Positions 20,501 to 64,000 of a stretch of DNA of 64,000 nucleotides are shown here, piece by piece. Source of the DNA: Agelas oroides (Eukaryota > Porifera > Demospongiae > Agelasida > Agelasidae); the NCBI GenBank assembly GCA_949130485.1, contig OX422183.1:4828136-4892135 (forward strand), given 5' to 3'. Positions within the stretch are counted from its first letter, which is position 1; each line of letters opens with the position of its first letter. Below the pieces are notes generated by a model, which saw nothing but the letters and a program-made list of their open reading frames with translations, searched no databases and was not told the DNA's origin. Both the position numbers and the translations under genes were made by a program.

Positions 20501-20681
20501 AAGTTCAGTTCGGCGCGCGAATGCGCGCACCAGCATATTCTGTCACGTGGTAATCATGTGCCTTCTGTCCTCAGAGTCGGTGAACAAAGTGAATCCCGCT
20601 TGGGTCTGGCTTCGCCAGACTAGTACCTAGCCTCGTTCCCAGGCTAATGTTTATAGATCTAAATTTTGTAAGTTGAGAGCC
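17527..20681. other. No recognisable gene
   Basis: Only short ORFs without domains are seen. There are fragments of the fold-back families at about 17650-17690 and at 20597-20648, where half copies of the CCAGAC family and the TAGCCTCGTTCCCAGGC family abut just upstream of the PP1 copy. Confidence 0.5.
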
Positions 20682-21650
20682 ATGGATGATAAATTTAACG
20701 TTGATAGTATCATCCAACGTCTGCTTGAAGTCAGAGGTTCTAGACCTGGCAAGAGTGTACAACTCACAGAACCCGAGATCCGCGGTCTGTGCCTGAAATC
20801 ACGAGAGATCTTCTTGAGCCAGCCAATCCTGCTGGAGCTGGAGGCACCGATCAAAATCTGTGGAGATATTCATGGACAGTACTACGACTTATTGAGGCTG
20901 TTTGAGTATGGAGGCTTCCCCCCAGAATCTAACTACCTCTTCCTTGGTAACTACGTGGACCATACGAAGCAGTCTGTGGAGACAATATGTTTGCTGCTAG
21001 CATACAAGATCAAGTACCCTGAGAACTTCTTCTTGTTGCGAGGGAATCATGAGTGTGCCAGCATTAATCGCATTTTTGGGTTTTACGACGAGTGCAAGCG
21101 TCGTTACAACATTCGTTTGTGGATGACATTCACAGACTGCTTCAACTGCCTCCCTGTGGCTGCCATCATTGATGAGAAACTCTTCTGTTGTCATGGTGGC
21201 CTGTCTCCTGACATGCAGTCAATGGAGCAAATACGTAGGATCATGAGACCCACAGATGTTCCTGATCAAGGTCTTCTTTGTGACCTGCTGTGGGCAGACC
21301 CAGACAAAGAGACAAATGGCTGGGGCGAGAATGACAGAGGGGTATCATTCACATTTGGACCTGAAATTGTATCAAAATTTCTTGCTAAACATGATATGGA
21401 TCTGGTAGTTCGGGGACATCAAATGGTGGAAGATGGCTATGAATTCTTTGCCAAACGTCAACTAGTCACACTATGGTCAGCACCCAACTTTTGTGGAGAA
21501 TATGACAATGCCTGTGCCATGATGAGTGTTGACGAAACACTAATGTGCTCCTTTCAGATCCTTAAACCTTCTGCTGCAGATAAAAGAAGGCTTTTTCCAT
21601 ATGCTAACCAGCGAAAATTGTTTTCAACAGGTGAGTCACAACAACATTAA
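20682..21650 (+). CDS. Intronless PP1-type Ser/Thr phosphatase copy with altered metal site
   Basis: The 322-codon frame from ATG 20682 spans the whole catalytic domain of protein phosphatase 1 (usual length about 320-330). Retained motifs are GDIHG (residues 61-65), GNHE (121-124), [17 protein letters not shown] and [11 protein letters not shown]. The family motif GDYVDRG reads GNYVDHT (89-95). The metal-bridging Asp (D92 in human PP1) is Asn (codon 20949-20951), and the phosphate-binding Arg (R96) is His. The residue after it is also changed, and RAHQ is RGHQ. Animal PP1 genes normally have several introns, so absence of introns suggests a retrocopy, though no poly-A tract or target duplication was found. 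A good splice donor (CAG/GTGAGT, about 21629) sits just before the stop, so the last codons may be intronic read-through. It is either a pseudophosphatase or an early pseudogene; the frame is still open. Confidence 0.85.
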
Positions 21651-24299: not shown

Positions 24300-25803
24300 A
24301 AAGTTCTGAATTTTGTCCCTGGACAACATATCGGCCACCCCATTGCACACACGTGAAATGTGCTCAATAGATATGGACATATCAAAATGCGCCACAAAGA
24401 ACCACATGGAGCGCAGCAGGTGCATTACTACTGGCTCTTTGGCTGAACCCTTGGAGACAGCAGCTACCACCAGTGTTGTCACACTGGAACAGGACTGATT
24501 TCTGCACCAAGAGAGGACCCCAAATAACACAGCTTATAACAATTGGGACAAGTTCTTTTGCCATTATTGCCTCGAGCACCCATTCTTGAGTCCATCGAAG
24601 TTGAAACCATTTACCATGGAAGAAGCCTGCACATCCCCATGCACCTTCACTGCCACTGAGTACATGCGACGGACGAAGGTGCGACCAGGGTGCACCACCT
24701 TCGCTGCATGCTGCAGTACCCCAACCAGGGAGAGTATCTCCCGTTTTGTGGCGCTTCTCTTATTGAGCCATTCAACAATGGTTGTTTGGATCCGTGACAG
24801 CTTGTCGCAGGGTAGTCTGGCTTCCATGCGCTCTGTGTCAAGTACAATTCCTAAAAATTCGAGGGCAGTAGATGGGCCTGCCACCTTATCCAAGGCTAGT
24901 GGGATGCCCAGCATTGCGCACACTTCGACAAGTAGGCTCAAGTTGCGCTGACAAATATGTGAGTTGGGAGGGCCTATTGTCAAATAATCGTAATGGAGCA
25001 AAAAGGTTACACCTTGATTGATCAAGATCCACTCGAGCAGGTCAGCTAGTACGTTAAATAACTTTGGCGCTGAGCGCAGACCAAACAGGAGGCAGGTGTC
25101 GATATATATTGAGCCTCTCCATTCCATCGCGAGCAAATGGCGATTTGCCGGGTGCACCGGAATGAGCCTGAATGCGCTTTGGATGTCGATCTTTGCTAGC
25201 AGTGCGCCGGGACCCAAAGTGATTATTTTCTCTATAGCATCATCAACAGAGATGTATGACATAGAACAGAGGTGCTTTGGTATTGCATCATTGACACTCT
25301 TCCCTGCTGGGTGGGAGAGATCGACAATCAGTCGCCATTTGTTTGGCTGGTGAACTTTTGGGATAACCCCAAAACGGTTCTGTGCCTCTGGTATGGTGAT
25401 TTGATTGAATGGACCCCTCACCCGTCTCGCTTGTTGCTCTTTTGCTAAGTACTCGCCTACTACTTCGGGGTGCCGCAGGGCTGATTGCATATTCCTTTTG
25501 GAGGGCTTAAGACTTCCTGAGGGTGGGTTGTAACCGTTCCGAAACCCTGCAGCAATGCCTTGGAGAAAGAAATGGGCTAAGGCTCTGTTGGGGTGAGCTG
25601 TTGGGGTGAGCTATCAGAAGGTGACGCCATGCAGTGAAGACGAGTGTGGTAGTGATTGCACATGCTTCCTGTGGGACTTTAACAGAAAATGATACCCTGT
25701 CTAGCAACTGGGACCATTGTTGTAGCCACTCTATGTCAGAGCCCCCGCCATGTGGGAGTGACATCTCGGGAGCTTCGGGTATGAGCTCTGGAAGATTTGC
25801 CAC
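24300..25803 (-). pseudogene. DIRS-like reverse transcriptase / RNase H, active site deleted
   Basis: The longest piece (25490-24564) has RT blocks: FGVIPKV, WRLIVDLSHP, AKIDIQSAFRLIPVHP, FGLRSAPKLFN, and LEFLGIVLDT. Where YxDD-LTIGPP is expected it reads HYDYLTIGPP, which fits a 6-bp loss removing one catalytic Asp and its neighbour. RNase H remnants follow across a frameshift, ending EHISRVCNGVADMLSR. Upstream, 25803-25507 may carry the linker between gag and RT. Confidence 0.8.
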
Positions 25804-37149: not shown

Positions 37150-37543
37150 TGTGAATCACTCTCCAGTCATAATGTAAGTTAATTTGCACTTGATTTAACC
37201 CTTTACTGATTGTACTGCATGATTGCAATGTTATATTGTACTCCACTAATAATATGTGTTATGCCATATCTCTGGTTATGAAACAGCTATGATCTTACAA
37301 TAAAACCTCACACTGCCAAGTTATAGTTACTGAAATTTGTTAAAGATAGCGACTTCTGGTATGGCAACTTTTGGTTTATTTCTGTCTCCTATTGAAATCT
37401 GTGCAGAAGCTAGAGTTTTTAGTTTAGCTCTCTATGTCGTTTTTTATTCTTTCTCCATCACTTGTCTATTTCTCAGTAAATACAGCACATCCTTGTTGAT
37501 TGTGATGTTATGCATTAGCAAATATTTCTTACTTTGTATGCAG

Positions 37544-38433
37544 GACAACAAAGACCCTTAAATCAATCTTCAACTACCGCAGCTGACATTCCAATGGTTC
37601 ACATGTCAGCACAAGATCGTGGTGAACATCAGCCAAAATTGCAACTTGAGACAAGCATCATGAAGATGTTTCCTAACCCTCTCTCACCACCAAAGTCCAC
37701 TGCAGTGTTTTATCCAATGAACTCCCGGAAACATGGTGTAGCACTCATCATCAACAACAAGAAACTTTCTGAAGGTAGCACCTTTGAGATAGCAGATTGT
37801 GATGAGCTAAACCTCACTGAAACTCTGATGTTTCTGGGGTACCATGTTCGGATAAAGCACACATGTAGCCGTAATGTAATGGCAAATCTCTTTGAACAGA
37901 TTGACATGGAGTGTTTAGATCCAGTCATGAAATCGGATGGTATCGATTCCTTTATCTGCTGCATCCTCTCACATTGTGACGAAGGGATGGTGTATGGGTC
38001 AGACAACAAGCCAATTGAATTGAGGAAAATACAGGAAACAGTTAGCAACTGCCAAGTTCTGAAGAATATGCCAAAACTGTTCTTTATCCAAGCATACTTG
38101 GGAAAGCAGCTAGATCCAGCACACAATCTTATTCTGTCCCAATGCAGTGATTTCTATTTCAGCTATGCTATTACTTCAAGTGAACAACCTTTTCGTGATC
38201 CTAAAAGGGGGTCATCCTACGTCACAGAGTTGTGTAAGGCTCTTTGCACCCACAGCACTGACATGGCCTTGAGTGGCATTGTAAAAAATGTAAACACCAT
38301 TTTAAAAGCTAAACGGGACAGTCACAGTCAACTCCTAAAAGAAGATAACCAACTGAAGAAAGAAGTATACTTCTTTCATGGTAGGGCTCATGTTGTAGAA
38401 ATCAGACAGAAGTCCATCACATATTTTGATTGA
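37544..38433 (+). CDS. Caspase-like exon lacking the catalytic Cys (pseudo-caspase)
   Basis: The exon follows acceptor TTTGTATGCAG and is open to 38433. A ~50-residue linker leads into a complete caspase fold: AVFYPMNSRKHGVALIINN (first strand), FLGYHVRI, SFICCILSHCDEGMVYG (His box), MPKLFFIQAYLG (active-site box), and p10 with FYFSYAITSSEQ, DPKRGSSYVTELC, KKEVYFFH. The catalytic His is kept (37972-37974), but the following Gly is Cys. The box normally QACRG is QAYLG, so the nucleophile is Tyr (38095-38097), one G-to-A change away from Cys. The substrate-binding Arg near the N-terminus also appears absent. It should be proteolytically dead, perhaps a decoy or scaffold like c-FLIP. A splice donor (CATG/GTAGGG, 38381) could replace the stop and join the exon at 38810. 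Confidence 0.85.
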
Positions 38434-43157: not shown

Positions 43158-45400
43158 AAAAAAGGCAGACAAAGGATCCATTGTCGTAGTACAAGATAAA
43201 CGGGAATACATTTAATATTATCATCAACAAAGGATCCACTGTCTTAATACAAGATAAACAGAAATACATTGAAACAGGTTTAGAGCATCTTTCAGATAGA
43301 GATACATACGATGAGCTTGAGGAAGACCAGACTAAACAGGTAGCCGAAGAAGTAACCCAACCTGTTAGATCCATGTACCAAGAGGGATACATAGATAAAC
43401 CCACTGCTGAGTACCTCCTACCTCCAGAATCGTGAGGACACAGGAAATGTAAAACCCACCCTCAGCTAGGCCCACAGTTTCTGGTTGTGATGGTCCAACA
43501 GAAAAGATCTCAGCTTACTTGGACCATGCACTGGCTTCAGCCCCTGGCAAAGTCACTCCCCTCCTACATAAAAGATACAAAGGAATTTGTTAAATACATA
43601 GAATTGCATTCTTTGTACCCTGGATGTTTCCTCTTTGTACACCAACATCCCAACAGAAGATGGCATTCACGCTGTGCTTCAAGCCATTGAAGACTTGGAA
43701 AACAAGGACCCTTTGTGTCCTCCAACCAGTTGGCTCAAAAAGCTTTTAGAACTCATTCTCTCCCAAAACGTTTTCAGTTTTAACGATAAATTTTACATCC
43801 AGAAACAGGGCACAGCCATGGGTACAAAGATGGCACCTGCCTATGCTAACGTTTTCATGGGTACACTGGAATCCAGAATTCTTTCTGAAACAAACCCCTC
43901 CCCCATACATTGGAAGAGATACATAGATGAGCTAGTATGGACTGACACGAAAGAGAGCCTAGAACAGTTCATCAGGAGCATCAATGAACTACACCCACGC
44001 ATTAAAATCACCGCAGAGTTTTCAACAGACAAAATCACATTCCTAGACCTATGCTTATATACAAAGGGGAGGGATTTGCCAAGGGAGGCATTCTGGATAT
44101 CAAAACCCATATCAAGCCTACCAATACCCAACAGTATGTACATGCCTCATCTACCCACCCCCTGGAACAGGTCGGGGTAATCATCAAAGGAGAACTACTT
44201 AGATACCTCCGAACAAACTCTAATGAAGCTACGTTCCAAACGCACAAAGAGAAACATGTCCAAAATATGGGAAAAAAAGAAGATACAGACAAGATATCAT
44301 AGACAAGAGGATTAAAGGGATTAATTTCTCCGACAGACAAAAAACGCTAGCAAACAAACCCCATAATGCAGGTGAACACCTAACTTTCACAACTACATAC
44401 CGCATTTACCAACACACCACCTCTGAAGATCGCTTGCTGAACACTGGCACCTCATCGAGAAATTCCCGCTACTTTCCAGACTCTTCCCAAACAGACCCAC
44501 TACAGACTTTAGAACCCACAAGAGCATTAGAAAACACCTTACCCAAGCAAGACTAGAAGACTCAAAGATTGTATATAAAATTGACCGAGACCTCAATCTC
44601 CTTTGTGAACCCCTACCTGCCCCAAATGCACCCCCACTAATCAAAAAATGTAACAATAACTGCCTGACATGTAAAGCCCTCGATACCAAACCATACATTA
44701 GGAGCACCTCCAAATACCACAATCTGAAAATCAAAAACACCATTAGCTGCAAAACAGGGAATGTTATCTATGTAATAACATGCAATAGATGAAAAGCCCA
44801 ATATGACTGCACAGTCATTACACAATAGATTCAGTACCCACATGCGAGAAATGCTCAGTAAAAGACCCCCAACTTGATCAAAACTCGCCTGTATAGGCAC
44901 TTTCAGAAGAAACACCACGTCCCCTCTGATGTCCGAGTTCAGCCAGTGGAATGGATAGAAGATCAAAGAAGTCTGAAGAAAAGAGAAAGTGCCTGAATCA
45001 AGGCATTAAGAACAATAGAACCCTGTGGACTAAACATCCTTCCTAGACCCACCGCCATTGTTCCCTTTTTATTCCCAACTGTACCCCCTTCAAGAATTCA
45101 TTTTCTAGAATGTACATGTACCCCCCTTAGCCTCTGCATTTTATTTTGTAGCTCCTTTAGGCATTTTACATGTTGTACCCTTTAGGCCTTGCATAGTTTA
45201 CAGTAGCGTGCTGTTTCCATGACAAACACACTATCACTAGATACATGCTGTTGCTAGTTACCACACACGCTGTTACTAAACAAACCCGTATACACTGTTC
45301 CATTTCCCTGTAACCACCCTTGAAAAAGCTCACCACCGATGAGCGAAATGTTGGGCCTCAACTGCAAACTGATTAAAGTTTTTCCAAACCCCTCCTACTG
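43158..45400 (+). mobile_element. Second Penelope-like element, 5'-truncated and decayed
   Basis: Plus-strand frames give a Penelope RT: KGSTVLIQDKQKYIETGLEH (about 43232), DVSSLYTNIPTEDGIHAV across a shift near 43630, then 43635-44180 with KQGTAMGTKMAPAYANVFMG and KRYIDELVWTDT. The catalytic YIDD reads YIDE, so it is inactive. Remnants of the GIY-YIG domain (CLTCKALDTKPYIRSTSKYH, NVIYVITCNR) lie at about 44655-44795 with stops. A ~55-bp direct duplication (43162-43205, 43217-43260) lies at the 5' edge. Near the 3' end, ACCGATGAGCGAAATGTTGG (about 45333-45352) resembles a degenerate hammerhead core. Confidence 0.8.
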
Positions 45401-47289: not shown

Positions 47290-48254
47290 CAGCTGATTAA
47301 CTGGATTTGATCCCCTGTTACACAATTGCCCTATTATAGCTAGGCTTCCACACTATAGAATGGGTTAGCTTAATAAATGGGCAGAGCAAGTTGGTTTGTC
47401 CACTCGCATTCAAGTCACCAATTCCTTTCCACTTGGGGTGCAGTTACTAATAAATAAAAAAAAGACAGCAACAAGTGAACAAAGTTTTCAGAATGACAAG
47501 CAGAGGTCTTCAGAGAAGACTGTTTTGCAAGCTGAAGTGTTTGTTACCTACGTGTACCAATGGAACAGTAACTGTTGTGATATGCTGTGCACATTATGAT
47601 TTTCTATTAGCATGCAAATGCCAAGATGATTTCTCCATGAAGATTTAGTCTAGTCATGTACCCAGCCTGTTACACCCCCTTCTGCCTGTCAGAAGCTTTT
47701 GTGGTGTGCAACTGTATTGCAGAAAATTTACGGGACAAGATTTTTATGAATTTGTTATCATCAGTATTCAAATGACAGAAAGTATACTTTCCAAAGCTCA
47801 TAGTCCCAAGGGTTAACAGAGAAACCACTTATAATACATTTATTGTTGCAAGGATAGAACACATATCAGGAAAGCAGAAACACCTGCAAAACGCAGTACT
47901 TAAGAATGATATATGATAATCCACCATTCAACTTGGTAGTGTAGTGCTCGCTCAAGGTCACCCTAACAACATACATTTCGTTGTCAAACATCGATTTATG
48001 TGTATGTTAGTGGAAGTGCAGCATTTCATCTACAAGGAGAGCGGGAAGAAGGCTTTCCTTCCAAAGCGATTGTTGTGTAGTAGGTAGACAACTGCATAGA
48101 AAATTTGTGCAAACTGCTCGGTTGCACCCCCCAAACTATCACACAGTGCAAAGCATCACATTTGTCAAACTTTTTTTTTTAAGATGAAGCCATGACATTA
48201 GTTGCTTCCTCAGTCTTAATTCTAAATAGATACCTTTTTTTTTACTTACCACAG

Positions 48255-51200
48255 CTCTGGAAAACCAGTCACATTATGAAGCCTATCAACAGGCATTAAT
48301 GGAAGGAGTTGCGATATCATTGAAGTATCTGAAAGTCCTCTTTTTCGGTCCTCCACGAACGGGTAAAACATCCTTGAGACGTCGCCTGGTTGGGGAGATT
48401 CTGAACCTATCAAATGAAGTATTTCAAGCAAGCACTGGCACAGCAGAAGCTTATGATGTCATTGTCAAGCTAGTTGAAGACAAGCTGACCACTTCAACAA
48501 CTGTTGTCACAAAGTCCAAGTGGTCAACTGTAAAAGCCTTGCTTGGCAAAGAAAAAAGCACTCATGAGACAGACTTGGATGAAGAATTGCGGATTCTCTA
48601 TGAGATTATTTATGGAGTTATTCTCACCAGTGAAAAGAGTTCACACATTCCTAATCCAGTCAATAACCTAGAAACCCAGGATGAAGCTACCAAAATGCAA
48701 AGTCTTCCTAATGTGAACACAAATACTCTTTCAAGTGCCAATTCATCCAAAGTAGTTAAAATTAATCCCAACCCTTCTATTTTTCAAGAAGTCTCATCAG
48801 TTGGAGAGTCAGGGTATGGACTAAGTGCCAAAGAAGTGGAAGAAATTGAAAAGGCATTTGTAGCTTTTAGAAAGGTATTTCATACACCTGGACAGAAAGA
48901 ACTTAAATTATTACTGAATGAAACAATGCTTATGAACATGGTTGACACAGGTGGTCAACCAGCATTTATTGAGATGCTTCCAGCTTTGACAATCGGCCCA
49001 GCACTCTATCTCATCTTCTTCAGGCTCAACCAAGAGCTGAAAGAAAGATACCAGATAAAGTATGTCAGTGAAGGGAGTGAAGATGTCCAGTTAGATGATT
49101 CTTCATACACTGTTGAAGAAGTCATTTTTCAAGCCCTATCAAGCATAGCATGTTTCAGCTGCACTGCACCTAAGAAAGCTAACATGCCTAGTGCAGCTCA
49201 TGCTGCTGTGCTTATAGCCACACATAAGGATCAGCTTGGAAGTGATCCAGAAGCTGAAATCAAAGCTAAAGATGATGCACTTCAAGAACACCTGAAAGAG
49301 ATTTTGGAAACCGACCTTTTTGAAAATTTTCTGCGATATTCTTCCGATGATCAGCTCATGTTTACAATTGACAACATGACGGGAGATGAAAAAGAGCTGG
49401 CACAAGTTTGACAACGTCTTGAGGAGGTAATCAAGCAAGAATTTGATGACTTCCCCATTCCAGCTTCTTGGCTTATGCTCAACATCTTCTTTCGTAAGAT
49501 AGGCAAACGTATCTTGAGCCTGTCGCAATGTCGTGAGATTGGAAATAGGCTGGAAGTGAGAGATACAGATGAAGCACTGTGGTTCCTGCACCACTGTGTT
49601 GGAACCCTGATGCACTTTCCTGACATAGAGGAGATCAAAGACATCGTAATCTGTGATCCTCAAGTTGTCTTTGACAGTGTTACAGATCTGATTTTGAATA
49701 GCTTCAAACTTAAGCAAGTAAACAAGGTAGCCTGTGACAAGTTCAAAGAAACTGGCCAGTTCAGCTTTAAGGATATTCAGAAGATTGCAAAGAACTCAAA
49801 AAGTGACAGCCTCCCCCTGCCAAAACTTGTCAAGCTCCTTGAATATCTCAACATTATTGCACCCATCAAACCTGAATGCCCTTCATTTTCTGGTTTCTCA
49901 ACTACTAGTCAGTCACAATCAGATGCCTACCAAGAGGAAAAGTACTTTATGCCTGCTGTACTAAAACAGGCTAAAGAAGAAGAGCTGTACATGATGCAGA
50001 ATCCCACAGCTCCAGCCCCTCTGATGGTTCACTTTAAGTGTGGCTTTGTACCTGTTGGTGTGTTCTGTGCTAAGATAGCCAGCCTTGTTGCTCAAGAGGA
50101 GACTCTTGGGTGGACTCTTCAGAAGCCACACAAACATCATTCTAAGAGATGTGATCAATTTTTGTGTAAGAACAAAGTCACATTTCGAATAAATGGTGCC
50201 TATGATGTAACCCTGATATCGAAGCCTAAATGGTATGAAATTCATGTTACTTGTATCTCAACTGCAGACAGGGCTGCACTGGTAGAGATCTGCATCCATA
50301 TTGTAGAAACTATCTGTGACACTCTTGACCAAGTCATCTCCAAGATGAGATACAAGTACTATCCAACATCTTCCTCTTCTGATCAAACACTCTACGAGCT
50401 GGGTTTCAAGTGCCCAGAACATCCAAATGATGATCACTTGATCATTAACAGACCAAAAAGTGGTATAGAAACTCCATCACAGACCGCAAAGACTCTCTGG
50501 TTGAACTACATTGAAGGCAAGTCGATAATGATTTGTCCTCTTGAAGGAGGGAAGGCCATTGACTTCACAGAGGCAAGCTTGCCTCGCTTGTTTGCTGAAC
50601 AGAGTCTTATCTGGTTTAGAAGTGTAAGTCAGTTTAGTTGGCCAGTTTCATTCAATATTAATAGTTACGCATTTGACTTACTATTTTCTCGTAGGATGTG
50701 AAAATCTCTCCTGTGTTACCTGACTCAATACTTGGTAAGAACACCTAGCTATATGTGGCTTCAGTATTAGTTTAGCCACTTAAGCTTTCATGGCAGCAAA
50801 TCTAACAGTGACCACATGTGACACCACATTGACTGCATGTATTTTATTTGCAGATGATCCTCAGTTGCCAAAGATAACAATATCTCACCTACAACTGATC
50901 AAATATTGTCACCGTACCTGTAGCAAGCAGTCATTCAGGCTACTTCAGTGTCTTGCCCCAAAGTGGAGAGAAGTGGGGGAGATTCTAGGCCTTCATCAAG
51001 CTGTGATTCAAACTATTGGATCAGGAAGGGATCCTGAGGATTGCATTCGTCAAGTGTTAGTGAAGTGGCTTAACGATGCCCCCCAGTTACCCAATTACCG
51101 CCAGTACCCCTTGACTTGGAGGGGGCTTCACAACCTTCTGCTAGATTCAGATAATGGTGAAGCAGCTGTTGAACTAAAGGTTGCTCTTTCAAGTCAGTTC

Positions 51201-60854: not shown

Positions 60855-63800
60855 CTATACAAGCTGATCATGGGGATTGATCTTGCCACGTGGAGGGCTC
60901 GAATTGGGCTCAACTACTACCACATGTGTCGCCCCCTTCAGACCAGGTGGAGAAGCAGTGGTGGTCGGCTGTACCAGCCTGGGGTGGCCAGCTGGGGGGT
61001 GGGGGAGGTCATGAATGACACACCCCTGGTACTCAAGGACTGTATGACAGTTGTTGCTCTGTCACTGATACTGCAGTGTGTAGTCCATTCCTGGTCCAAG
61101 CTGAAGGGGAGGGGTGGGGGTGGCAAGATACGCTGCCACTGGCATGGCTCCACTTCTCAAGTGAGAGGGAGAGTGGATGGTGGGGGAACCCTGCTGCTCA
61201 GAGCCATTGTGGTGGTGATACCTCTACTACTGGTGATAGCAGGAGACGTGGAAACAAACCCAGGACCTCCCAAGGTGGAAGGTAAGATGGATAGATAAGT
61301 AGTATACATAGCTGAATTTCTTAGCACAAGCACTGTGTAACTGGGCACATAATCTGCAGAGGTCTACACAACAAAAACAAGTTGGTTGTTTTAACCACAG
61401 AATGGTTACCCTGGTTGCAGACAAACTGGAGAAACAGTGGTTATGAGAGCTTTACTTTGGTATTGAAGAGTAATTGCATAAGGCAACACAAGAGGTGGCT
61501 TCCCAGTTCATCTTACAACTACAATACACTGAAAACCCTCATAACATCCTTGATTCCCTCATCTGGTTACATGAAAGTTCCTTACTGCAACTTTGAAGTG
61601 CATTTGTAATGACTCCTTTACAGATGTCCTGAGGGTTGTCAGTGTATTGTGGTTGTAAGATGAACTGGGCAGCTGCCTATTGAGTTGCCTTATGCAAATA
61701 GTCTTCCATACCTAACATAACCACTGTCTCTTCAGCTTGTCTGCAACCATGGTAACCACTCTGAGGTTAAAACCACCAACTTGCTTTTGCAGTGTAGTTT
61801 CATGAAACGTATTGTGAATTTTTACCTTACAGTGCTGACATTGAAAGCCGCAATTAATGCACTGCATTCAGTGTGTTACAAGTGGCATGCTATTGGAGTG
61901 CAATTAGAAGTTCCTGCCTTTCAACTCAAGATCATTGAGAAAAAGTCAAGTGACTTAATGGACCAGCTGCATGATACACTGGACTATTGGATGAACAATG
62001 ACTCTTCTGCCTCCTGGAGACACCTTGTTGATGCACTGAAAGCCCCGAGTGTTGGTGAGAAGCGGTTAGCTGGGGAAATAGAAGAGAAGTATTGTTGTCC
62101 AGAGAAACAAACCAGCTGTACTGAATCAGAAACTACAATTCAATCCAAATGTTACCAAGGTATGTATGCTTTGCCATTTAAACTGAATGACAGTGTAGCT
62201 ATGTGATGAATGTGTGCTGTTCTCTCTGCAGAAGTTGCCAGTGAAGACAAGAAGAAGATACTATCCTTTTCTGCTGCATGTGTGCTCACCTCAGAAAACA
62301 CTACCACCCTTCCAGCAAGGTACAGCAGCAGAACAAGCCCTCCTCTGAGTGATGGACCTCCAAAAACACCATTTGGTTGTGGGTGTGGCAAGTGCACATT
62401 CTTTAGCTTCATAGAAGGGGGCTGTCCAATGTCCATTTCATCAGCAAGCTCCTTCCCCTACCTCAATGTTAGTGGACTTACCCACGAGCAGCAAGATGAA
62501 CTGAGAGGAAGGCTTCGCTCTGAGTCTCAAAAGATAATGATACGATTCCAGAAGTTAGTGTCAGCAACAATTAAGTCACTCAAGAGGCGATGTATACCAC
62601 TGGATGAACTTGTGTCACATGTCATGACTCTTGGAGCATTTGACCCTGTTTTCAAAGAGCCTCAAGTGCCAGTTTTTCACCATTACTTCAAAGAATTGAA
62701 AGCTGTGGACACTATCCCAAAGGTTTTCATGGTTCTTAATGACTACTTTTCATTCTTCAACTACCACATCATTGAGCACATCATTGAAGAACTCGGCACA
62801 GAGGAAGATAAAGCTGGACTACAGAGTTACAAAGAAGAGTTTAATCAATATGCAAAGCGAAGGATCTTTGAATGCCAACCAGAGTTTGGTACAGTAAGCG
62901 ATGCTGACCACGCTGATATTTTTGTGAAACTGGACTCACAGTATGACAACTACACTGTTGTAGAGATTATGGGATTCCGTCAAAAATTGTGTGAAATCTT
63001 ACGTGTTTCATCTCAAGGCATTTTGCGTCTCTGTCGAGTAGATAAAGGTTGTTTGCAGCTGATGTTCCAGGTGCCCTCTTTTGTACACCATGAGATATTT
63101 CCACTGTCTAGAGAACAAGAGACGGCTCTGGCAGGCATAGGTATTATCAGACTCACATGCGGGGAATATCAGTTTCAGGTAAGGTTGTCTGTGGGTGTAA
63201 TAGCCAATGCATGTTTACAGGTTGTGGAATGAGGCATGGAGGCTGTTGCTGTATAATACATAACGGAAATGTGTGTATATTGAGTTATGTACTTTCATCT
63301 CCTTATAGAAAAATGAATCATCACAAGCAGAAGTTGGTACGTGCATTCTAGGTGCCATCTAAATACTCTTACACTTCCTCTCTTTGTCAATCATGGTTTT
63401 CTTTTACAGTGAAGAAGCACCAGCATGATACTGATGGGGATTCTGGTATGGGTCCCAGCATATCTACCGACAGCAAGAGCACTACCTTTTCTGAGGTAAG
63501 CTACTACCTCCCTCAATACATGCATGTAGTGTTGTATGGGTATTTACACAGTCGTGTTTCTGCACTAGGATCGTCTGGACAAAGAGATGAAGGAAATAGA
63601 CTATGAATTAAGAGTACAGGGCCTTATAGAAACAGCATCCTCAGCCAAGTATGGGAGTGGTTTGCTAACAGAGCTCCACTTTGCAGTAGCAACAGGACAG
63701 TTGGAACATGTCAGGTTTCTTGTTGAGAAGAAGCACTGCAACCCAATGCAGAGACATCAACATGGCTTCACTGCTCACATGGCTTCACTGAGATATCAGG

Positions 63801-64000
63801 GTGGATTTGCTCCCTTTCATGCAGCAGCACTCAAAGGAAGTGTGCAAGTGTTGAAGTATTTCATCACAGAGAGTAACTGCAACCCAGCATGTCCAGGCCT
63901 ACTTGGCTTAACACCCCTTCATTTAGCTAGTGAGCAAAGCCATCTTGACGTGGTTAAGTATCTGGTTACTGAACAACAGGTTAATCCACTGTGCGAAGAT
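60855..64000 (+). CDS. 2A-like leader / Death domain / ankyrin gene, 3' end outside the window
   Basis: Inferred exons: 60855-61281 (ATG 60870, after acceptor TTTTACAG), 61833-62159, 62232-63178, 63309-63336, 63410-63495, 63569 to beyond 64000; phases agree throughout. Exon 1 encodes ~137 residues: a basic start (MGIDLATWRARIGLNYYHMC), a first hydrophobic patch (CMTVVALSLILQCVV), a second (LLLRAIVVVIPLLLVIAG), then DVETNPGP (126-133). Exon 2 is a Death domain (CYKWHAIGVQLEVPAFQLKI, DQLHDTLDYWMNND, WRHLVDAL). Exon 3 (~315 residues) is an unnamed domain starting at a GCGKCTFFSFIEGGCP motif; I recall close relatives in predicted sponge proteins but no function. Exon 6 starts ankyrin repeats (ELHFAVATGQLEHVRFLVEK, FAPFHAAALKGSVQVLKYF, LTPLHLASEQSHLDVVKYLV). 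Probable role: Death-fold signalling scaffold or receptor. Upstream 5' exons cannot be excluded. Confidence 0.8.
61242..61268 (+). other. 2A-type ribosome-skipping motif
   Basis: GDVETNPGP at residues 125-133 matches the D-x-E-x-N-P-G-P signature. Skipping would fall between Gly132 (61263-61265) and Pro133 (61266-61268), leaving the Death-domain product with N-terminal Pro-Pro-Lys. It follows a hydrophobic segment without a gap. Only 4-5 codons separate it from the intron. Confidence 0.85.
61378..61783. mobile_element. 406-bp fold-back element in intron 1 of the 2A gene
   Basis: CAAGTTGGTTGTTTTAACCA is mirrored by GGTTAAAACCACCAACTTG; arms of ~165 bp (61382-61550, 61618-61783) are near reverse complements. 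It fills most of the 551-base intron. Confidence 0.8.

Follow-up and report, generated by a model that had tools for sequence, protein, structure and literature searches.

Conserved leaders ending in a probable 2A ribosome-skipping element head a predicted Death-ankyrin gene and many related genes in the sponge Agelas oroides

Background

PMC12846837 presents ribosome skipping at 2A sequences as mostly viral and as very rare in cellular genes. That paper describes six classes of upstream 2A motif. Four of them (1, 3, 4 and the L-rich 6) were assayed and all were active in reticulocyte lysate. In one known class, the residues before the core are L-rich and end in (A/S/C)G (PMC12846837).

The closest described system is in the sea urchin Strongylocentrotus purpuratus, whose NLRs carry N-terminal 2A-like signal sequences, SpNLR2A (Roulston et al. 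2016, PMC4981915). In reporter assays the urchin 2A was both a skipping site and a signal sequence. It was estimated to be about 80% active, and the reporter stays in the cytoplasm. A skipping-dead mutant enters the secretory pathway. The same paper places 2A in the ORFs of non-LTR retrotransposons.

Among the titles found in literature searches, none dealt with sponge 2A leaders. Rao et al. 2025 (Cell Rep, PMC12338488), who surveyed eukaryotic 2A sequences, may report such genes, so the family described here cannot be claimed as unreported. In the available text of a paper on the NLRs of Dysidea avara (PMC12909245) the terms '2A-like' and 'signal peptide' were not found.

Here we consider a gene at the edge of a window of 64,000 nucleotides from Agelas oroides, the window being the whole stretch of DNA that was analysed. 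We argue that this locus would make two proteins from one frame by 2A skipping, namely a membrane-type leader of 132 residues and a leader-free Death-X-ankyrin protein. We give this reading a probability of roughly 0.72.

The gene and its 2A element

The features of the gene are as follows.

60870..61265 (+): coding part of the leader, from the ATG to the Gly of NPG (132-residue product); from sequence and paralogue conservation
60891..60908 (+): WRARIG box at the leader N-terminus; from genome-wide pattern matches
61029..61085 (+): hydrophobic segment H1; from Kyte-Doolittle hydropathy
61188..61244 (+): hydrophobic segment H2 (TLLLRAIVVVIPLLLVIAG), the L-rich upstream part of the 2A element; from hydropathy and the 2A class of PMC12846837
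61245..61268 (+): 2A/StopGo core octapeptide DVETNPG/P; from motif and selection
61282..61832 (+): predicted intron 1, consensus GT..AG, phase 1, carrying a foldback (inverted-repeat) element
61833..62159 (+): Death-domain exon of 327 nt, symmetric phase 1-1; PF00531, E 2.2e-5
62232..63178 (+): domain X exon; no significant Pfam or PDB relative
63569..64000 (+): ankyrin-repeat exon that continues past the window edge; PF00023, E 2e-17

The exon at 60870-61281 encodes MGIDLATWRARIG...TLLLRAIVVVIPLLLVIAG-DVETNPGP-PKVE, and the end of the leader reads LLLVIAG-DVETNPG/P. The first-pass annotation placed GDVETNPGP directly behind a hydrophobic run in an open exon, and this is what we find: H2 (61188-61244) adjoins the octapeptide (61245-61268) with no gap. 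It also had the splice donor of this exon joining in frame to a Death-domain exon. The exon ends at base 61281 with the donor GGAAG/GTAAG, and the next one begins at 61833 after the acceptor TTACAG; both sites are in phase 1. Once joined, the predicted exons 60870-61281, 61833-62159 and 62232-63178 give 562 codons without a stop, so the frame is open on both sides of the 2A. The Death domain scores 25 bits, above the Pfam gathering cut-off of 22.6, and this claim stands as well.

We infer that the 61281/61833 junction joins the leader exon to the Death exon. Two things support this prediction. Phase-1 donors (GT[AG][AG][GT]) are found at the equivalent place in other leader families. They follow NPGP directly in 37/39 sites of leader B and 22/22 of leader D, with one fixed offset in 36 and 22. 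In leader A, the family of the window gene, the first such donor within 45 nt is in phase 1 at 16/30 sites and out of phase at 5, with none at 9. The second support is that leader, 2A and Death-type sequence form one uninterrupted ORF in eight loci (L031, L045, L046, L076, L078, L080, L081 and L109). Pfam found Death in 3/3 of those searched (L031, L045, L046), two of them slightly under cut-off, and the other five were assigned by eye. The start of the leader at ATG 60870 is supported because conservation among the paralogues begins at this methionine (MGIDLATW), while the codons upstream vary.

The foldback in intron 1 (61364-61797) has nested inverted arms of 82 nt (88%) and 93 nt (86%), and has the appearance of an inserted MITE-like element. 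Several other ORFs lie in the window. A caspase domain ORF at 37519-38433 (+) (PF00656, E 3.7e-23) is another cell-death gene. At 48230-50701 (+) there are ORFs with matches to Roc (E 9.8e-4) and COR-A (E 5e-8), both under the Pfam cut-offs, in what appears to be a Roco-like gene. A Ser/Thr phosphatase in a single ORF at 20631-21650 (+) (PF00149 E 1.2e-45, PF16891) looks PP1-like by eye and is perhaps a retrocopy. Reverse-transcriptase ORFs (PF00078) are found at 24567-25610 (-) and 43602-44177 (+), with E 1.2e-10 and 8e-8.

A DNA pattern for D[VIM]ExNPGP has 285 exact matches in the genome (259 Mb, 141 contigs) and its reversed control has 0. We estimate the chance expectation at about 0.5 under equal base frequencies. 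Among the 283/285 sites listed individually, the one reported here is the only one inside the window. An L-rich run, defined as at least four of L/I/V/M/F among the eight residues preceding the residue next to D, comes before the 2A at 169/170 sites read (the exception is L070). The D is preceded by (A/S/C)G at 159/170 sites read and at all 30 leader-A loci. The window gene has both the core D(V/I)ExNPGP and the L-rich (A/S/C)G context, LLLVIAG.

Since the L-rich run belongs to the 2A class itself (169/170 sites), it is weak and non-independent evidence for a signal sequence. A hydrophobic leader abutting the 2A must be rejected as proof of a signal peptide for the same reason. The 'hydrophobic leader' of the first-pass annotation is therefore right as to the hydrophobic run and fails as independent evidence of targeting. 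It adds less than it seems to; the long, selected leader adds more.

One can imagine that the octapeptide is a coincidence and has no skipping activity. Chance occurrence is ruled out by the 285 sites against 0 and by the retention of the motif in full-length leader copies (158/162, given below), and the context is of a class known to be active, so an inert coincidence would be very improbable indeed. Skipping at the window 2A is very likely by analogy with that class. The proposal that this is a genuine conserved 2A element before a Death/ankyrin gene is borne out by the L-rich class, the 158/162 copies and the urchin NLR precedent (PMC4981915).

Leader families and selection

The window leader has 132 residues, two hydrophobic segments and the conserved N-terminal WRARIG box. 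Its exon has 88 tblastn matches in the genome; all counts of repeated sequences given here are lower bounds. The exact motif is found in 65/66 full-length copies of leader A (at least 380 bp; within the match or beside it, with 150 bp allowed), and 2/66 have an internal stop. With 60 bp allowed, it is found in 59/61 copies of leader B of at least 370 bp, 3 of which have an internal stop, and in 34/35 copies of leader D of at least 320 bp. This makes 158/162 for the three families. The leader queries do include the motif, as only 8 of 120-154 residues. Leaders A, B and D together account for 172/283 listed 2A sites.

Some of these copies may have arisen by recent duplication or be duplicated in the assembly. 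L012 and L013 score identically. The window leader (L001) has a twin 113 kb away (L002) that is 98% identical, and the next leader copy after each of them (G000:C1:4901457 and 5008403) is followed by X-domain matches of identical score. This suggests that the region is either a recent segmental duplication or an assembly duplicate.

Profiles of the leaders were compared with the last 14 residues before the 2A removed. Leaders A and F are linked (96%, E 2e-9), D and F are too (79%), and A and D are linked weakly (35%, E 4e-4). B and C had no detectable homology to A/D/F, to each other or to the five PHD-type leader groups described below. The WRARIG box at the extreme N-terminus is common to A, D and F. 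Its DNA pattern has 108 matches in the genome and 1 for the reversed control. Among the 100 of 108 that were listed, 89 have a 2A site within 600 bp downstream, in frame in 84/89, and 11 have none.

For leader A, 30 loci were fetched by similarity to the whole leader. They are the best 30 of the 88 matches and thus the less diverged copies, and 30/30 have the motif. Of these, 29 were aligned; L009, whose start reads MGIDVATW, also has the motif and was left out. Mean Nei-Gojobori dN/dS over the 29 copies is 0.09 for the 2A nonapeptide GDVExNPGP (pS 0.35) and 0.10 for the first 20 residues. Residues 21-50, H1 and H2 have values of 0.38-0.46, and the linker has 0.64. The most constrained parts of leader A are the 2A and the extreme N-terminus. 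Values in leaders B, C and D are similar, those at the 2A being biased because these loci were fetched by the motif. The leader-A loci are free of this bias, and so is the first third of D, which has 0.08. The leader is under purifying selection and is a module in its own right.

This bears on a scenario in which the main use of skipping is to leave the receptor with an N-terminal proline, or to slow down translation at a defined position, as a control of stability or dosage with the leader as a by-product. It makes sense of the 2A core being, with the first 20 residues, the most constrained part of the leader. It leaves the conserved WRARIG box and the upstream hydrophobic segments unexplained, and we consider it a long shot.

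Another line of reasoning starts from mobile elements. In at least 39/170 sites read, an ORF has the L-rich 2A and then a PHD finger at once (for example L039, L042 and L083). This count comes from a regular expression, and further ones were seen by eye (for example L038, L040 and L169). Pfam found PHD in 3/3 of the ORFs searched, and one of these, L039, also has DUF6570 beside the PHD finger. They are mobile-element-like. A GT[AG][AG][GT] donor right after the 2A is absent in 28/39 of them. The window gene itself was rejected as a retrotransposon ORF, since Death, X and ankyrin lie downstream of its 2A and not PHD or reverse transcriptase.

One could still argue that the leader is a passive remnant, the captured N-terminus of such an element that spread with the gene family, with skipping doing nothing more than removing it. 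The PHD-type ORFs carry the same L-rich 2A, one of them with DUF6570, which speaks for capture. However, leaders A/D/F, B and C have no detectable homology to the five PHD-type groups, nor do these three lineages have any among themselves. Capture would need at least three origins or extreme divergence. Moreover, the leader N-terminus is as constrained as the 2A (dN/dS 0.10 in A, and 0.08 in the first third of D). We regard this scenario as improbable.

Genes downstream of 2A sites

On contig C1 a Death-exon match lies within 5 kb downstream, on the same strand, at 70/86 listed 2A sites. There are 0 upstream and 0 on the opposite strand. In 2000 circular shifts the mean was 0.64 and the maximum 11, against 70 observed. 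Over all contigs, 150 of 658 candidate Death-exon matches were scored. In 106/150 a 2A site precedes the match by at most 5 kb, while no match of the 150 has such a site downstream or on the opposite strand. The first-pass annotation had proposed to look for the motif in front of Death domains, and within this one genome the search finds it there. Outside C1 the fraction is 35/70. A canonical 2A is not found nearby for 44/150 Death matches and 14/86 X matches.

Domain X showed no significant relative in Pfam or among PDB sequences. It has at least 86 copies with at least 49% identity (62327-63178 in the window; alignment A1). Single members give faint matches to Dredd_N, TRADD-like_N and PYRIN (E 0.02-0.16), a hint that X may be linked to the death-fold. 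We counted 104 of 129 X-domain matches (86 at this identity and 18 more remote) and left out 25, mostly fragments. A 2A lies within 9 kb upstream of 72/86 of the closer matches; a 2A 3' of the match occurs in 5, within a stretch of tandem genes. For the remote ones (29-36% identity) the count is 3/18.

The downstream stretches of 20 other 2A sites were considered as well, and ORFs were scanned in 8 of them, picked by eye. Death was found in four of these 8 (L174, L175, L176 and L186), in L174 under the cut-off. L186 has NACHT after Death, well above cut-off in the whole-genome search (C2:938204). L174 has a sub-threshold Roc match after Death, and L187 a weak COR-A match downstream of the 2A. 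The ORFs downstream of the 2A in L171 (leader D) and L180 had no Pfam match, and the Death domain behind leader D was assigned by eye only. At L182 (G000:C3:3488875-3491800) there is an ORF with an immunoglobulin domain (PF13927, E 9.3e-12) 0.7-1.2 kb downstream of a 2A site.

Most of the 105 scored NACHT matches have no 2A site nearby upstream. A 2A lies within 8 kb upstream in 11/105 and within 15 kb in 17/105. At these two distances the 3' side has 1 and 2, and the opposite strand has none. Judged by position and frame, the leader-2A design heads many of the Death-fold genes of this genome.

The fate of the leader and the receptor

The H1 of the window leader has a Kyte-Doolittle value of 1.95 over 19 residues and ends 53 residues before the Asp of the 2A. 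In leader A, H1 reaches 1.6 and beats shuffles at p<=0.05 in 30/30 loci examined. Across the host leader families it reaches 1.6 in 85/86 and beats shuffles at that level in 78/86. An upstream hydrophobic segment is also found in eight/eight PHD-type ORFs examined, although it is weaker in some, so it is not specific to Death genes. The hydrophobicity of H1 in leader A is moderate; a rough estimate of its insertion energy in four leaders gives +3 to +5.

A constant spacing between H1 and the 2A was sought across the leader families and not found. The distance is 45-101 residues in representatives of A-D (53 in four A leaders) and 32-93 in F. The exit tunnel of the ribosome holds about 30-40 residues. 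H1 would thus be outside the ribosome when the 2A is decoded in nearly all leaders.

Judged by the flanking charges, the topology of an unskipped chain is ambiguous. In A and D the linker between H1 and H2 has roughly the same positive charge as the N-terminus or a higher one; in B it mostly does not. We therefore dropped the idea of a simple two-TM hairpin that always keeps the Death domain cytosolic, since the charge pattern differs among leader families.

The route we favour for the window gene is the following. The ribosome would translate the 132-residue leader first, with H1 already outside by the time the H2/2A part is decoded. In the exit tunnel LLLVIAG-DVETNPG would block the Gly-Pro bond and the leader would be released. 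Translation would then resume at the proline and give a separate Death-X-ankyrin protein. Both steps are expected from the match to the L-rich class that is active elsewhere (PMC12846837) and from the roughly 80% activity of the urchin 2A (PMC4981915). The products would be a 132-residue leader ending in AGDVETNPG and a second chain starting PPKVEVLTLKAAINAL. Going by hydropathy, the released leader most likely enters or binds a membrane alone, and the receptor-like protein would be made leader-free in the cytosol. Chains that are not skipped would stay tethered to the leader and be directed to the membrane or ER.

It is worth considering whether these last chains are the point of the system. 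As the first-pass annotation proposed, the leader would then direct the chain to the ER, and the share of chains that skip would be tuned so as to send the Death-ankyrin protein to the cytosol or into the secretory pathway. Signal anchors have positive residues on the N side of the hydrophobic segment and acidic residues on the C side. H2 looks like this: an Arg is close by on the N side, and Asp/Glu flank it on the C side. The N-terminal 2A of the urchin NLRs also does both jobs in reporter assays (PMC4981915). However, nothing here points to regulation. A canonical core, as found in 158/162 full-length copies, predicts high skipping, and the L-rich run belongs to the 2A element itself. The leaders are long, with the extra segment H1 and ambiguous charges, and it is hard to see what a Death-ankyrin protein would do in the ER lumen. 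Regulated dual targeting is thus a serious candidate that we nevertheless think unlikely, and we prefer the release of a membrane-type leader from a cytosolic receptor.

What this means for the genome as a whole must be put more tentatively. At least three leader lineages (A/D/F, B and C) that end in a 2A head Death-fold genes with ankyrin, NACHT and possibly Roc. With them, animal innate immunity may have a layer of translational recoding that spans the genome, in which each mRNA would give a membrane micro-protein and a cytosolic receptor in fixed proportion. Since H1 would be out of the tunnel at the time of 2A decoding, the outcome, and with it the location of the receptor, could shift upon engagement of a membrane or when the translation apparatus is disturbed. 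This would be a built-in sensor of the state of translation or of the membrane. We consider this extension speculative and more doubtful than not.

The case deserves attention all the same. A ribosome-skipping signal that is usually seen as a viral trick ends long membrane-like leaders before many Death-domain receptor-like genes. In one animal genome it lies upstream of 106/150 scored Death matches and ends leaders of at least three lineages. In leader A, where selection can be measured without bias, the selection on it is strong. It can now be asked by experiment whether what cells gain from skipping at the start of an immune-type receptor is the leader peptide, a receptor free of its leader, or a choice of the two.

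Comparison with known systems

The element belongs with the L-rich StopGo/2A class (LLLLSG-like; motifs 2/6), with which it shares a D-V-E-x-N-P-G-P core after Leu-rich residues and (A/S/C)G. The sequences described in PMC12846837 are from viral polyproteins, whereas here they are in host multigene families. The 2A of non-LTR retrotransposons (PMC4981915) has the same motif, and this genome has PHD-finger, mobile-element-like ORFs with a 2A in which the L-rich run also precedes it. The window gene differs in having neither PHD nor reverse transcriptase, and its leader is not detectably related to the PHD-type leaders.

SpNLR2A (PMC4981915) is the nearest match. Both have a 2A, preceded by a hydrophobic stretch, at the N-terminal end of proteins from an immune-type multigene family with Death domains. 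The urchin element has 26 residues at the very N-terminus of NLRs, whereas the window 2A ends a leader of 132 residues. This leader has a WRARIG box and a second hydrophobic segment, and it heads Death-X-ankyrin. The window gene has Death, X and ankyrin up to the window edge and no NACHT there. Elsewhere in the genome, unlike in the window gene, there are also NACHT exons, and possibly Roc exons, with a 2A site upstream. Going by the predicted gene structures, we argue that the arrangement is a variant of that of the sea-urchin NLRs with 2A, on a genome-wide scale.
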